A DNA stretch of 64,000 nt. Source: Ruaniaceae bacterium KH17. Its GTDB lineage: Bacteria; Actinomycetota; Actinomycetes; Actinomycetales; Actinomycetaceae. The notes below the pieces were generated by a model. It made no database searches and was not told the origin of the DNA. It was given only the letters and a program-made list of their open reading frames with translations. Shown piece by piece: positions 10,794-15,693 of the stretch. The number at the start of each line of letters is the position of its first letter. Within the stretch, counting starts at the first letter, position 1. The position numbers and the translations under genes are program-made. The DNA lies in the NCBI GenBank assembly GCA_900199505.1, contig FZQV01000010.1:1-64000 (forward strand). The letters run 5' to 3'.

Positions 10794-10919
10794 CAGACCG
10801 GCAGTGAACCGCCCAAGCTCGCTCTGAGTGCGCACATCAAGCCCGCCGAGGGCGGCAACTCACTCGCTCTCGGCGACACTCATTGCAGATCAGGGTTGGT
10901 CCCGCGGTAGGCTCCCGTT

Positions 10920-10958
10920 ATGCGTTCGAACCAGATCTCGTGGTGGTGGCTGCAGTAG
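10920..10958 (+). CDS. Tryptophan-rich leader peptide MRSNQISWWWLQ
   Basis: A 12-codon open frame contains three consecutive TGG codons followed by Leu, Gln and TAG. TAGGCT at 10908-10913 is six bases before the ATG, so the peptide would start at the mRNA 5' end (leaderless); a possible -35 TTGCAG lies at 10883-10888. Runs of Trp codons in a short leader frame are the hallmark of ribosome-mediated trp attenuation, known in actinobacteria upstream of trp genes. Here the next gene is a GNAT acetyltransferase 86 bases downstream. Confidence 0.72.
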   Translation: MRSNQISWWWLQ

Positions 10959-11019
10959 CGGCCTTGACGCATGTTCGCGGGCCGCATGGCAGTTCACGAA
11001 CCCGGGATCATCGCCATGC
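10958..11019 (+). promoter_or_regulatory. Putative attenuator: two mutually exclusive hairpins after the Trp leader
   Basis: GCGGCC (10958-10963) is complementary to GGCCGC (10980-10985), and GCATGGC (10984-10990) is complementary to GCCATGC (11013-11019). The second arm of the first hairpin overlaps the first arm of the second at 10984-10985, so both cannot form at once. A third complementary pair GTTCG/CGAAC (10973-10977 and 10997-11001) also spans the region. A ribosome stalled on the Trp codons would shift the balance between them. No U-tract follows, so control could be by transcription or by access to the acetyltransferase start region. Confidence 0.55.
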
Positions 11020-11044
11020 AGCCCTCCGTTCTGGAAGGTGCACG

Positions 11045-11530
11045 ATGATGGTGATTCAGCAACCACACCGGTTCGAGTTGACGGGACTCACTTCGGATTC
11101 TGCGGGTGAGGTGATGACTCTGCAGCGGGCCGCGTACGCGACCGAAGCGCAGGTCTATCGCGATCCGTTCCTACCCGCCCTGACCCAGTCCCTCTCGGAT
11201 GTTGAGCAGGAGCTCCAAGGGCCCGCGCTGGGAGCACGCCTCGGCGCGAGGCTCGTCGGTGCGGTCCGGTGGACGATCGAGGCTGGCGTCGCTCATATCG
11301 GCAGGCTTACTGTCGCGCCCGATATGCAGGGGCGCGGTCTGGGGACGATGCTGCTGCGGGCCGCGGAGGAGGCCAGCAGGGCGCAGGTCTTCGAGCTCTT
11401 CACCGGTCACCTCAGCGAGGCAAACATCCGCTTGTATGAGCGTGAAGGCTATGTCCCGACGCGCCAGGAAAAGCTCCACGACGGCGTCGAGCTCGTCTAC
11501 CTCCGCAAAGAAAAACCGTCTCCGGCGTAG
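11045..11530 (+). CDS. GNAT-family N-acetyltransferase
   Basis: A 161-residue GNAT protein. The acetyl-CoA-binding motif A is visible as HIGRLTVAPDMQGRGLGTMLL (Q/R-x-x-G-x-G type), followed by the ANIRLYEREGY motif near the end. The true start is ATG 11045 (or the adjacent ATG 11048), preceded by GGAAGG; the longer frame from 10883 would run through the Trp leader. The amine substrate is unknown. The upstream Trp leader suggests that expression responds to charged tRNA-Trp, raising the possibility that the substrate is Trp or a Trp-derived amine or toxin; this is inference. Confidence 0.85.
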   Translation: MMVIQQPHRFELTGLTSDSAGEVMTLQRAAYATEAQVYRDPFLPALTQSLSDVEQELQGPALGARLGARLVGAVRWTIEAGVAHIGRLTVAPDMQGRGLGTMLLRAAEEASRAQVFELFTGHLSEANIRLYEREGYVPTRQEKLHDGVELVYLRKEKPSPA

Positions 11531-11721
11531 CGGCATCGATTGCCCCTGCGGACCGCCCACGTTTGAGCATCCACTCTTGGGTGGGCCTTCGTAGGCGCTT
11601 CTCAAACCCCCGGAAGCCACTGAAAACCCTAATTCCCCACGCTATCAAGGGATCGCGGCGCGGTCGGGGCAACCCGCCGCGCTCTCGGATCGCCGATCAG
11701 CGCGGCCCCGTGCGTGAAAAG

Positions 11722-12117
11722 GCGAGCGGTCTCGACCGCCCCTACCCCACTGGAGACCGCGAGTTGCTGGACCGAATCGGTGATCTTGGGTTACTGGTCA
11801 GTGAGCGGCCGCCGGGTGCGGTGCCGACGCGCGGCAGGTTCATCGCGCGAGCGCGTCTCGTGGCTGCCCTTTCGGGATCGACGACGATCGTCGAAGCAGC
11901 TTGGCGGTCAGGCGCACTGGCAGTCGCGCACCCTGCGAACGAGCTTGGCCAAGTCGTTGGTGCTGTTCCGGGACCGGTAACCAGTGCAGCCAGCGCCGGA
12001 ACTCATCGAATCTTGCAGGAAGGAGCGGCCAGTCTGGTGACGGACGCCACGGACCTTATGGGCCTGTTCCGGCCCAGAGCGCTGACCATCGCTTCGACCA
12101 GTGCTGGCCGAGGTGGA
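11722..12117 (+). pseudogene. dprA: DprA/Smf DNA-processing protein, internal-to-C-terminal relic
   Basis: The frame encodes SGLDRPYPTGDRELLDRI, then GLLVSERPPGAVPTRGRFIA, STTIVEAAWRSGAL, VVGAVPGPVTSAASAGTHR and ASLVTDATDLMGLF, the ordered motifs of the DprA Rossmann-like domain from its middle to its end. The N-terminal domain and the first half of the fold (the GIDGAAH region) are missing and no start precedes the homology. Extra DprA-like genes are common on actinobacterial integrative elements, which fits the arsenic genes beside it. Confidence 0.78.
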
Positions 12118-12184
12118 GATGGGCCGAGCTGTCCGGCGCAGCCTGGAACAGCTACGCCGCCCTCCGACGCTGACGACTCTCGGG

Positions 12185-12571
12185 TCAGCAGGGCGAGACG
12201 GCACCTGCCGCCTGCAACGACTCCGGGTTGAGCACGCCGCTGAGCATCGCGAGCGTGTCGGGGGCCAGGGCGTAGTAGGCCCACTTGCCGCGCTGCTCGC
12301 GGGTGGCCAGTCCGGCGTCGACGAGCTGCTTCATGTGATGCGACACCGTGGGCTGCGAGAGACCGACCGGTTCGGTCAGGTCGCACACGCACGCCTCGCC
12401 ACCGGATCGCGCGGCGATCATCGACAACAGCCGCACCCGCGTCGGATCGCCGAGGGCCTTAAACATCCGCGCGAGCTTCTGCGCGTCCTCGACTGCGAGC
12501 ACGCCCGCGGTCACCGGCGCACAACAGGCACCGGCATCGGTCGGGCTCAGCAGCGGCAGCGAAGTGGACAT
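12185..12571 (-). CDS. arsR: ArsR-family arsenic-responsive repressor
   Basis: A 128-residue winged-helix repressor. The core MFKALGDPTRVRLLSMIAA leads into EACVCDLTEPVGLSQPTVSHHM, where Cys61 and Cys63 form the CxC metal site; a further Cys pair sits at 16-17 and a terminal Cys is present, so three-coordinate As(III)/Sb(III) sensing is likely. TAGAAT (12579-12584, minus strand) is seven bases before the ATG, suggesting a leaderless mRNA. It is divergent from arsM across a 34-base dyad. It should derepress itself and arsM-acr3-arsC on arsenite binding. Confidence 0.93.
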   Translation of the reverse strand: MSTSLPLLSPTDAGACCAPVTAGVLAVEDAQKLARMFKALGDPTRVRLLSMIAARSGGEACVCDLTEPVGLSQPTVSHHMKQLVDAGLATREQRGKWAYYALAPDTLAMLSGVLNPESLQAAGAVSPC

Positions 12572-12592
12572 GCCCACGATTCTACCCGACGT

Positions 12593-12626
12593 ATTGACAG
12601 ATGTCGATGCATCGAAGATCATCAAT
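12593..12626. promoter_or_regulatory. ars operator: symmetric dyad between arsR and arsM
   Basis: The site reads ATTGA, six bases, the perfect palindrome TCGATGCATCGA (12604-12615), six bases, TCAAT. All arms share one centre of symmetry, as expected for a dimeric ArsR protein. A TTGACA at 12594-12599 inside the left arm can serve as the -35 of the arsM promoter, so repressor binding would block it. Confidence 0.7.
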
Positions 12627-12661
12627 ATGACTTGATCGGCTCGACGCGAACGGAGCACACC

Positions 12662-13525
12662 ATGACTGAGAACACTAACGAGAGCACTGGGCTGCGTGAG
12701 CAGGTCCGTGCCCGCTACGCGCAGGCGGCGACCGCGGTGAAGACCGGGACCCGCAACGCCGACCTGCTGGTCGAAGACCAGTGTTGCGGTTCGTCCTGCT
12801 GCGGCGGTGCGCCTGCCGACCGTGACGAGACCGAACGCGCCGAAGCGTCGTGCTGTGAGTCGTCGTGCTGCGGCGACACCGCCACCGAGCGGAGCTTCGG
12901 CGCCGGCCTCTACGACCTCGCCGATGCTGAGGGCCTGCCGATCGAGGCGATCGAGGCGAGCCTGGGCTGCGGCAACCCCACCGCGGTCGCGGAGCTGCGT
13001 GAAGGTGAGCGGGTGCTCGACCTCGGCTCCGGCGGCGGCATCGACGTGCTCCTGTCGGCCAAGCGGGTCGGCCCCACGGGGTTCGCCTACGGGGTGGACA
13101 TGACCGACGAGATGCTGGAACTGGCCGAGGCGAACAAGGCCAAGGCCGAACTTGCGAACGTGGAGTTCTTGAAGGGCACCATCGAGGACGTGCCCCTCCC
13201 GGACGGGGCGGTGGATGTGGTGATCTCCAACTGCGTCATCAACCTGTCGGTCGACAAGCCCGCCGTGCTCGCCGAGATGTTCCGCGTCCTCACGCCGGGC
13301 GGGCGGATCGGCGTCTCCGATGTCGTCGCCGAAGACCACCTCACCGGTGAGCAGCGGGCCGAGCGCGGCTCCTACGTCGGCTGCATCGCCGGAGCCCTCT
13401 CCCGAAGCGAATACCTCGACGGCCTCACCGCGGTCGGGTTCACCGACACCAGCGTGGAGTTCACCCACGAAGCCGCCGACGGAATGCACGCCGCCATTGT
13501 CCGCGCCACCAAGCCCACCGCCTGA
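12662..13525 (+). CDS. arsM: Arsenite S-adenosylmethionine methyltransferase
   Basis: A 287-residue class I methyltransferase. The SAM motif is [14 protein letters not shown] near residues 118-130. Conserved arsenite-binding cysteines are visible at 103 (SLGCGNP), 191 (ISNCVINLS) and 241 (YVGCIAG). The N-terminus carries two further CCxSSCC clusters (41-47 and 64-70), which may preload arsenite. It converts As(III) to methylated, partly volatile species. ATG 12662 follows GGAG by six bases. First gene of the arsM-acr3-arsC operon. Confidence 0.94.
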
Positions 13526-13558
13526 CCCGCCGCCGCTTCTGATCGCGATAGGTAGCCG

Positions 13559-14668
13559 ATGACCGCGACCCGACCGAACACCGACACCACCGCCGTCACT
13601 GGCGCGGGGGCGCGTCTTTCGACGCTGGACCGCTGGCTGCCAGCCTGGATCGGCCTGGCGATGATCGCCGGCCTGATGCTGGGCCGGCTCGTACCCAGCG
13701 TTTCCAACCTGCTCGCCCGCTTGGAGGTCGGCGGCGTCTCGGTGCCGATCGGGCTCGGTCTGCTGGTGATGATGTATCCGGTGCTGGCCAAGGTCCGCTA
13801 CGACAAGATCGCCGCCGTCACCGGCGACAAACGCCTCTTGGTCTTGTCTCTCCTGTTGAACTGGCTGCTCGGCCCAGCGGTCATGTTCGCCCTGGCCTGG
13901 CTGCTGCTGCCCGACCTGCCCGAGTACCGCACCGGCCTCATCATCGTCGGCCTGGCCCGCTGCATCGCGATGGTCGTGATCTGGAACGACCTGGCCTGCG
14001 GCGACCGGGAAGCCACCGCCGTGCTCGTGGCGATCAACTCGATCTTCCAAGTCGTCATGTTCTCCGTGCTCGGCTGGTTCTACCTCGCCGTGCTCCCCGG
14101 CTGGCTCGGCCTGGACACCCAAGGGCTCGACGTGTCGATGGGCCAGATCGCCCTCAACGTCCTCGTGTTCCTCGGCGTCCCCCTCATCGCGGGGTTCGCC
14201 TCCCGCTGGATCGGCGAGAGACGCAAAGGCCGCGACTGGTACGAACAACGGTTCCTGCCGCGGGTCGGGCCGTGGGCGCTCTACGGGCTGCTGTTCACCA
14301 TCGTGCTGCTGTTCGCCCTTCAAGGCGATGCCATCACCTCCAACCCACTCGATGTCACCCGGATCGCGCTGCCGCTACTGGCCTACTTCGCGATCATGTG
14401 GTTCGCCGGACTCGCCCTCGGCAGAACCCTGGGCCTGGGCTACGCCCGCTCCACCACGCTCGCGTTCACCGCCGCAGGCAACAACTTCGAGCTCGCCATC
14501 GCCGTCGCCATCGGCACCTTCGGAGCCACCAGCGGGCAAGCCCTCGCCGGGGTCGTCGGCCCGCTCATCGAAGTGCCCGTCCTCGTCGGCCTCGTCTACG
14601 TCTCCCTCTGGGCCGCCCGAGCCTGGTTCCACACCGACCCCTACTCAACTGAAACGAGCCCAGCATGA
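13559..14668 (+). CDS. acr3: ACR3-family arsenite efflux permease
   Basis: A 369-residue membrane protein with about ten hydrophobic segments. The family signature GLARCIAMVVIWNDLACGD contains the essential cysteine of the fourth membrane helix, and FTAAGNNFELAIAVAIG lies in the ninth. The protein exports arsenite at the expense of the proton-motive force. It starts 33 bases after arsM and its stop overlaps arsC (ATGA), indicating coupling. Often annotated arsB in operons, but the sequence is the ACR3 type, not the ArsB/NhaD type. Confidence 0.95.
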   Translation: MTATRPNTDTTAVTGAGARLSTLDRWLPAWIGLAMIAGLMLGRLVPSVSNLLARLEVGGVSVPIGLGLLVMMYPVLAKVRYDKIAAVTGDKRLLVLSLLLNWLLGPAVMFALAWLLLPDLPEYRTGLIIVGLARCIAMVVIWNDLACGDREATAVLVAINSIFQVVMFSVLGWFYLAVLPGWLGLDTQGLDVSMGQIALNVLVFLGVPLIAGFASRWIGERRKGRDWYEQRFLPRVGPWALYGLLFTIVLLFALQGDAITSNPLDVTRIALPLLAYFAIMWFAGLALGRTLGLGYARSTTLAFTAAGNNFELAIAVAIGTFGATSGQALAGVVGPLIEVPVLVGLVYVSLWAARAWFHTDPYSTETSPA

Positions 14669-15066
14669 CCGCCTCGAAGCCGACCGTCCTGTTCGTCTGC
14701 GTCCACAACGCCGGCCGCTCCCAGATCGCCGCCGGCTACCTGCGCCACCTCGCCGGGGACGCGATCGAGGTCCGCTCCGCCGGTTCCATCCCCGCCGAGC
14801 AGATCAACCCCGTCGCGGTCGAGGTCATGCGGGAGGTCGGGATCGACATCTCCGCCGAGCAGCCCAAGGTGCTTACCACCGACGCCGTCCAGGCCGCCGA
14901 TGTCGTCATCACGATGGGCTGCGGCGACGCCTGCCCGTTCTTCCCCGGAAAACGCTACGAAGACTGGAAGCTCGACGACCCCGCCGGCCAGCCCCTAGAA
15001 ACCGTGCGCACCATCCGCGACCAGATCGAGGGCCGCATCCGCGACCTCATCACCGAACTCACCTGA
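14665..15066 (+). CDS. arsC: Arsenate reductase, low-molecular-weight phosphatase type
   Basis: A 133-residue protein with the P-loop FVCVHNAGRSQ (nucleophile Cys12, C-x5-R-S) and the later Cys pair 86 and 90 (MGCGDACPFF) of the redox relay. It reduces arsenate to arsenite for export by the neighbouring Acr3, drawing electrons from thioredoxin or mycoredoxin/mycothiol. It overlaps acr3 by four bases. Last gene of the operon; the serine recombinase relic follows 28 bases later. Confidence 0.94.
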   Translation: MTASKPTVLFVCVHNAGRSQIAAGYLRHLAGDAIEVRSAGSIPAEQINPVAVEVMREVGIDISAEQPKVLTTDAVQAADVVITMGCGDACPFFPGKRYEDWKLDDPAGQPLETVRTIRDQIEGRIRDLITELT

Positions 15067-15093: not shown

Positions 15094-15600
15094 ATGGGCG
15101 TCTTCCCCGACACCCTTGCGGTGTCCTACCTGCGCGTGTCCACGAAGGAGCAGGCCTCCAAGGGTGGGCGCGACGAAGGCTTCTCCATCCCAGCTCAGCG
15201 CGAGGCGAACCTTCGCAAGGCCCGCGACCTGAACGCGATCATCGTCGAGGAGTTCGTCGACGCTGGCGAGTCCGCCCGCAAGGCCGACCGTCCCGAGCTG
15301 ATGCGGATGATCGAGTACGTCAAGACCCACCCGATCGCGTACTGCATCGTTCACAAGGTCGACCGACTCGCCCGCACTCGCGGGAGACTGCCACGCGATT
15401 TACATGAGTATCGACGACTCACTGCGGCGCATCGCCAACCAGGCCTTCTTCGACAAGCTCATCGTCCTGCCTGAAGACGGCATCATCGGGGAGCCGGGGG
15501 AACCGTTTGACGCGCTGTTCAACCCCGACGTCCAGACCCGCGCGGTCCGCTTCACGGAGCGGACGGCGGAATCTGGACCTCAAACCGCTGATGTCGGTGG
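15094..15600 (+). pseudogene. Large serine recombinase, internally deleted
   Basis: The first part (15094 to about 15380) encodes a normal resolvase N-terminus: VSYLRVSTKEQASKGG with the catalytic Ser16, GFSIPAQREANL and CIVHKVDRLARTR. The frame then breaks. In the next frame, from about 15388, DCHAIYMSIDDSLRRIANQA and FFDKLIVLP match the C-terminal tail of large serine recombinases. The recombinase and zinc-ribbon domains between them are missing, so a deletion joined the two ends. The tail reads out into tRNA-Val. This was probably the integrase of the element that brought the ars genes. Confidence 0.82.
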
Positions 15601-15620
15601 TTTGAACAACGACGCTTGGG

Positions 15621-15693
15621 TGGGCCCTGCCGGGATCGAACCGACGACATCCACGGTGTAAACGTGGCGCTCTACCAGCTGAGCTAAAGGCCC
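15621..15693 (-). tRNA. tRNA-Val (anticodon UAC)
   Basis: The reverse strand folds as a complete cloverleaf: acceptor GGGCCTT/AGGGCCC, D-arm AGCTCAGCTGGTAGAGC, anticodon stem CCACG/CGTGG with loop TTTACAC (anticodon TAC), and T-arm GTCGGTTCGATCCCGGC. The discriminator is A and CCA is not encoded. It lies at the edge of the accessory region next to a recombinase relic, as expected for an integration target. Confidence 0.93.

Follow-up and report, generated by a model that had tools for sequence, protein, structure and literature searches.

Why should a leader with three tandem tryptophan codons and switchable hairpins stand in front of an acetyltransferase gene? The question is raised by a locus of Ruaniaceae bacterium KH17, within a stretch of 64,000 nucleotides that is called the window throughout this study. 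There, the leader unit (10908-11024) joins a short reading frame to mutually exclusive hairpins upstream of a GNAT gene (Table 1). The initial annotation had described a leaderless Trp-codon frame that contains WWW and has a TAGGCT box six bases before its ATG, and the sequence reads as claimed. It had also named two inverted repeats. The one at 10958-10985 is exactly as described and corresponds to helix 2:3 (GCGGCC 10958-10963 with GGCCGC 10980-10985); the other, at 10984-11019 (GCATGGC/GCCATGC), is present but longer, with 10979-10990 facing 11013-11024. An additional helix, absent from that annotation, pairs GGCTGC 10948-10953 with GCGGCC 10958-10963, which yields a set of helices 1:2, 2:3 and 3:4. 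The downstream gene was rightly called a GNAT acetyltransferase, as its product matches Pfam PF00583 (Acetyltransf_1) with 49.9 bits against a cut-off of 20.7 (E = 4.6e-13) and its structure model has a GNAT fold.

Table 1. Positions of the elements of the leader and of the acetyltransferase gene in the window.
Feature	Position	Strand	Remark
-10 box TAGGCT	10908-10913	+	six bases (10914-10919) before leader ATG 10920; leaderless start
Leader frame MRSNQISWWWLQ-stop, 12 codons	10920-10958	+	Trp codons TGG TGG TGG at 10941-10949; stop 10956-10958
Segment 1 GGCTGC, partner of segment 2	10948-10953	+	1:2 helix with one U-G pair
Segment 2 GCGGCC, partner of segment 1 or 3	10958-10963	+	2:3 conserved in alignment
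Segment 3 GGGCCGCATGGC, partner of 2, 4 or local arm 3'	10979-10990	+	from aligned leaders
Arm 3' of local hairpin with 10977-10985	10989-10997	+	weakened in the window
Segment 4 GCCATGCAGCCC	11013-11024	+	3:4, presumed OFF helix; one C-A mismatch with segment 3
Shine-Dalgarno GGAAGG of GNAT gene	11033-11038	+	sequence reading
GNAT acetyltransferase, 161 aa, start ATG 11045	11045-11530	+	Pfam match, GNAT-fold model

Folding of the single sequence is unremarkable (z = -1.5; 17 of 200 shuffles fold equally well), and the argument therefore depends on comparison. A pattern search of 299 genomes of f19, the inferred family of Agromyces, found nine places in nine genomes, two of which are leaders. 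In Agromyces G153, MRNDRANWWRLQ and the same hairpins precede the same GNAT gene, and in G278 an exact match to the pattern, MRALVSSWWWLQ, lies upstream of a tryptophanyl-tRNA synthetase gene. The seven other places, with one mismatch each, showed no leader when viewed in plus orientation (L045 and L049 are minus-strand matches). A first covariance model, built from the leaders of the window, G153 and G278, returned 37 rows at E <=0.01 in the same 299 genomes. Thirteen were kept at E <=2.8e-12, and 12 of these lie upstream of trpS and one (G153) upstream of the GNAT gene; of the 24 weaker rows, the seven viewed (L063-L069) showed no leader-trpS arrangement (L063, L067 and L069 are minus-strand matches, viewed in plus orientation). 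With a second model, 11 matches were obtained in 396 genomes of the order at a limit of 1e-4; all 11 rows were kept, the weakest being L108 (E = 6e-5), and nine were new and stand before trpS without exception. Applied to 296 genomes of the class, the same model gave four matches, of which the two new ones stand before trpS, and it gave two in 60 Agromyces genomes. Among 101 genomes of the window's own family it matched the window itself and none of the other 100 sampled genomes.

A third model, R3, was built from 16 trpS leaders, with no GNAT leader included, and was run on 22 sources (149,937 bases). It recovered the window with 81.2 bits (E = 5.4e-19), the Agromyces G153 locus L008 with 94.6 bits (E = 1.6e-22) and the A. 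salentinus locus with 31.7 bits, and the sole further row, at 12 bits and E = 0.86, fell on the window's minus strand. In each of two further families R3 matched one of 47 genomes, and both matches were leaders found previously. In total, the sampled genomes yielded 25 leaders, 23 before trpS and two (window and Agromyces G153) before the same GNAT gene. This set includes L110, which is cut at a contig end, and the divergent L108, and it stems from a sample of genomes searched with the stricter filters of Infernal, not from an exhaustive search. Could chance produce this in GC-rich DNA that happens to contain some Trp codons and hairpins? The modest z-score would allow it, but the match of the window to a model that contains no GNAT leader refutes a chance origin, and the leader also stands before trpS in several families, so that the probability of coincidence is practically nil. 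An origin from the leader of tryptophan biosynthesis genes, before which the initial annotation placed the known Trp leaders, is not borne out either: under these filters, none of the 25 leaders from the sampled genomes precedes such a gene. The comparison thus shows the window's leader to be homologous to the leaders of trpS genes. Rfam, at the gathering score, recognised only three tRNAs in the window and left the leader unmatched, and gave no match at six trpS-leader loci; at E up to 5, two weak and unrelated matches were obtained for the leader.

The elements of the leader recur across the set. A TANNNT box lies six to seven bases upstream of the leader ATG in 22 of the 24 leaders with upstream sequence, and two or three Trp codons are present in all 24 leaders scanned; the truncated L110 shows TGGTGGTGG. 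In family f6 (L101, L102, L104-L107), the leader frame extends beyond segment 2 and ends with AAD before TGA, which would place a ribosome on the stop codon further 3' than in the rest of the set. The window also contains a second frame (ATGTTC... ATGTTCGCGGGC..., 10971-11048, 25 codons), the stop of which overlaps the GNAT start codon (ATGA). Its ATG sits in a conserved loop of the leader, while the frame itself is unconserved; in some relatives it is in frame with trpS. It was set aside as a second leader, being out of frame in other relatives and lacking its ATG in L058.

The helices were counted in a MAFFT alignment of the 25 leaders. Pairing is nearly complete, with 150/150 cells for 1:2, 149/150 for 2:3, 220/225 for the local hairpin 3:3' and 268/274 for 3:4, and falls to 3-68% when the partners are slid by one to three columns. 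Pairs changed on both sides amount to one in 1:2, two in 2:3, two in 3:3' and five in 3:4. One of the two compensated changes of 2:3 is held by the window itself (A to G in segment 2, U to C in segment 3). The covariation score was reached by 19 (1:2), four (2:3) and none (3:3' and 3:4) of 500 shuffles. However, the controls sometimes match the observation: for 2:3, a slide of +2 gives 0.073 against 0.066 observed; for 3:3', doubly changed pairs are at least as numerous in 282 of 500 shuffles; and for 3:4, the +2 slide equals the observed number of doubly changed cells (6). Since few sequences carry changes and many of them are related, the covariation is support and not proof. The covariation, the analysis of which had been suggested at the outset, is thin. 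In the window, the 3:3' hairpin (10977-10985 with 10989-10997) keeps seven of nine pairs and has a computed energy of -2.4 kcal/mol, compared with -10.7 to -18.0 kcal/mol in the other 24 leaders, whereas 3:4 keeps 10 of 11 pairs with one mismatch. In all 25 leaders the computed stability of 3:4 exceeds that of 2:3, although longer stretches enter here and the comparison favours 3:4.

How could such helices be read by a ribosome? Transcription would start at or beside the leader ATG. The placement suits the sensing of stalls: the distance from the start of the first Trp codon (10941) to that of segment 2 (10958) is 17 bases, and by the length of its footprint a ribosome whose A site holds either of the first two Trp codons would hide segment 1 while segment 2 stays exposed. 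If tRNA-Trp is charged, the ribosome would reach the stop codon and cover segments 1 and 2, 3:4 would form and the gene would be off. When tRNA-Trp is uncharged, either by tryptophan shortage or by a poisoned tryptophanyl-tRNA synthetase (TrpRS), the ribosome would stall on TGG TGG TGG over segment 1; the free segment 2 would then pair with segment 3, withhold it from 3:3' and 3:4, and the gene would be on. We computed minimum-energy folds of 24 leaders with the bases covered by the ribosome masked, a procedure that ignores co-transcriptional folding. The window behaves as the scheme predicts: with the ribosome on the first or second Trp codon, 2:3 forms with 6/6 pairs, and with the ribosome at the stop codon, 3:4 forms with 10/11, although the minimum-energy fold without any ribosome has 2:3 as well. 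L059 turns from 2:3 to 3:4 like the window, and L062 from 2:3 at the stall to 3:3' at the stop. These three are the only ones of the 24 with a stall-state 2:3; it never appears in the other 21, and in 17-18 of the 24 leaders the local 3:3' hairpin dominates irrespective of the position of the ribosome. In the leaders without this fold, either 2:3 would be kept by kinetics during transcription or a different scheme would apply. The window appears as the simpler case, with the switch reduced to 1:2, 2:3 and 3:4, because its 3:3' is weak. Taken together, we consider it likely that the leader is a ribosome-mediated Trp attenuator of the trpS kind, here placed before a GNAT gene. The annotated arrangement, a leaderless Trp-codon leader with switchable hairpins before an acetyltransferase, is thus supported and recurs at Agromyces G153. 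The stalling of the ribosome, the direction of control and the way in which 3:4 lowers expression, by termination or by hindered initiation, are inferred. The arrangement suggests that the GNAT gene responds when tryptophan is scarce or its charging is poisoned.

There is no clear sign of intrinsic termination, as five U in a row follow segment 4 in one of the 25 leaders only (L101); the window has UCCGUUCU at this place. For this reason the leader is said to work like an attenuator. Potentially, control acts on translation: the ribosome binding site would be masked by the 3' part of segment 4 (4:5), with the upstream helices deciding whether this happens. Besides the lack of five U in a row in 24 of 25 leaders, the end of segment 4 is fully paired (5/5) with the Shine-Dalgarno region in 10 of the 24 leaders whose sequence extends this far, including seven of 12 trpS leaders of family f19, and in the first 14 leaders 57 of 70 4:5 cells are paired (81.4%) with three pairs doubly changed. 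In the wider set, however, only 92 of 120 4:5 cells are paired; families f6 and f11 and the leaders L053, L060 and L061 have only two to three of five pairs, the window has four of five and the GNAT leader L051 three of five. Moreover, folds with the masked ribosome do not agree on a direction at the start site. The opening energy of the start site shifts with ribosome position in both signs, seven and seven of 14 leaders, and in the two GNAT leaders the shift runs counter to induction; there is thus no support for a simple equilibrium switch at this site. We regard a translational output as possible but less likely than not.

Vecchione and Sello reportedly described in 2010 a ribosome-mediated attenuator of an auxiliary, antibiotic-resistant trpS in Streptomyces. 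An auxiliary indolmycin-resistant TrpRS of Streptomyces is mentioned in PMC6804068 and PMC9437257. PMC8079986 describes the S. lividans trpS leader as leaderless, with two hairpins, no uridine-rich stretch and the peptide MMTRTCTQLWRAA. On these descriptions, the attenuator of the auxiliary trpS of Streptomyces and the leaders studied here share a Trp-dependent leader before a second TrpRS gene. The gene controlled in the window, in contrast, is a GNAT gene. The peptide MMTRTCTQLWRAA is unlike those of the present trpS-leader family, which gives no support for common descent. The trp operon attenuators of Corynebacterium and Streptomyces have double or triple UGG codons and complementary antiterminator and terminator segments of the GGCC type, according to PMC1262725. 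Repeated UGG codons and GGCC-type segments are also found here, whereas those attenuators possess poly-U terminators and precede biosynthetic genes, and 24 of our 25 leaders lack five U in a row. Judged by title and the start of the abstract, none of the literature matches listed concerns a Trp leader before an acetyltransferase or the present leader family. Thus, the parts are of known kinds, and their combination is absent from those matches at this depth of text.

Ten genomes were tested for trpS. Each of the eight with a leader-trpS unit, of the 23 found, carries trpS twice, in two kinds that share 30-39% identity, so that in 8/8 the leader precedes an auxiliary second copy. In these eight genomes the housekeeping genes score 289-347 bits against TIGR00233 and the leader-bearing ones 228-242 bits; the latter are 68-87% identical to each other (this identity comparison omits the housekeeping gene of G261). 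By their likeness to the auxiliary indolmycin-resistant TrpRS of Streptomyces, the leader-bearing synthetases may be inhibitor-resistant. The single trpS of G153 belongs to the housekeeping kind. In the window's genome one trpS was found (L089, contig C41, 13946-14917, minus strand), without a trpS-type leader, and it is 57-61% identical to the leader-bearing kind against 34-39% to the housekeeping kind of relatives. If the leader-bearing kind is inhibitor-resistant, the host of the window may be so constitutively.

Where did the leader-GNAT unit come from? Searches with the GNAT protein found homologues at five loci and, at E 0.001, in 139 of 198 genomes of the order, the majority being remote, and a plasmid search gave 16 records, all below 60% identity. 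Close relatives (E 1e-25 or better) are present in seven of 60 Agromyces genomes. In a GNAT tree of 36 rows, A. salentinus is the sister of the window (98/94), and both fall in a clade of eight that comprises the window and seven Agromyces rows (95/93). The family of the window differs from that of Agromyces, and within its own family two genomes have good matches, 46-47% identical. Because the GNAT protein nests among Agromyces and the leader is absent in the 100 other sampled genomes of the window's family, leader and GNAT gene were probably acquired together by horizontal transfer from an Agromyces-like donor. Compared with A. salentinus, dN/dS of the GNAT gene is 0.16 (NG86) or 0.12 (YN00) with synonymous sites near saturation, values that indicate purifying selection. 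The leader of the window is nearest to a trpS leader, L050 (71%), and shares 65% with the other GNAT leader. A common origin of these two GNAT leaders is therefore only one option: the GNAT gene may have gained its leader once, followed by losses, or more than once.

Across the close GNAT genes of the seven Agromyces genomes, conservation of the WWW frame, on which the initial annotation had staked its proposal, is partial: the leader is intact in G153 and decayed in A. salentinus (36 bits, compared with 106 and 113), while the covariance model found none at the five other loci. Decay before the same GNAT gene and the five loci without a model-found leader would fit a relic that came along with the GNAT gene and gives it only a promoter and a 5' end, its response to tryptophan gone, and so would the nearly lost 3:3' hairpin and the mismatch in 3:4 of the window. 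However, the window keeps WWW, the stop codon, the -10 box, 1:2, 2:3 and 10/11 pairs of 3:4. The change in its segment 2 is compensated in segment 3, and it is one of the three of 24 leaders with a 2:3 stall fold and one of the two that turn to 3:4 at the stop. We therefore hold a relic to be rather unlikely in the window. The initial choice between a new Trp-responsive regulon member and a relic can be put more specifically, namely as a trpS-homologous leader that is maintained in the window and decayed in A. salentinus.

Which substrate might the acetyltransferase have? The structure model (pLDDT 87) shows an ordinary GNAT fold, the best structure match having Z 20.3 and an rmsd of 1.9 over 150 residues, and the nearest structures, which include uncharacterised enzymes, PaiA, RimI and Ard1, give no pointer to a substrate. 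Tested as RimI with NCBIfam TIGR01575, the protein scores 31.5 bits, below the cut-off of 86.4. MccE and RimL are not among the best 50 matches listed in each of two structure searches, which excludes neither.

The neighbourhood offers one other candidate. The frames at 12185-15066 resemble, by eye, what we take to be arsR (minus strand), arsM, an ACR3-type exporter and arsC, and are followed by a short recombinase-like frame (15094-15474) and a tRNA-Val (15619-15693). Just 3' of the GNAT gene, the middle of a frame at 11563-12231 resembles by eye the C-terminal part of DprA, presumably as a fragment. Together with the leader-GNAT unit, the region with the ars-like frames may form a genomic island. 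The GNAT protein might then be an ArsN-like acetyltransferase of the adjoining arsenic cluster, acting on an arsenic-containing amino acid, with the Trp leader incidental, and ArsN does appear in the Foldseek results, from rank 14 onwards. Yet the ArsN chains are only 13-16% identical and lie within 681 matches at E 0.001 or better, and no ars frames were recognised by eye beside the GNAT gene in A. salentinus (flanks of about 3 kb) or G153 (about 1.5 kb). A role in the arsenic cluster is thus very improbable.

The best clue to the function comes from the leader. Since it elsewhere precedes trpS, and MccE and RimL inactivate synthetase inhibitors, detoxification of a TrpRS inhibitor is the natural hypothesis for the GNAT gene. 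These two acetyltransferases act on inhibitors of aminoacyl-tRNA synthetases by acetylation of an amino group (PMC7916415); the likeness to the GNAT protein of the window lies in the proposed kind of function. It is tempting to speculate, on this analogy and quite tentatively, that the GNAT protein destroys a TrpRS inhibitor, for example by acetylating the amino group of an antibiotic resembling tryptophanyl-adenylate, and that the leader-GNAT unit is a mobile, self-regulated resistance cassette controlled by the same sensor of Trp stalling. Acetylation of tryptophan, or another role of the GNAT protein, is possible as well.

A leader that reads the charging of tRNA-Trp is informative about its target gene, and its other clients found here are all trpS, an extra copy wherever this was tested. 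In this way an otherwise unassignable GNAT protein gains a concrete hypothesis, the inactivation of a TrpRS inhibitor. If this is true, the GNAT protein would take the place of a resistant synthetase under control of the same sensor, and the cassette would act on a class of tryptophan-mimicking antibiotics that is perhaps not yet described. The 25 aligned leaders provide material for studying actinobacterial Trp attenuation without a U-run terminator. In summary, this study suggests a rule for searching: orphan genes behind leaders of the synthetase type may lead to undescribed resistance enzymes and to their antibiotics.
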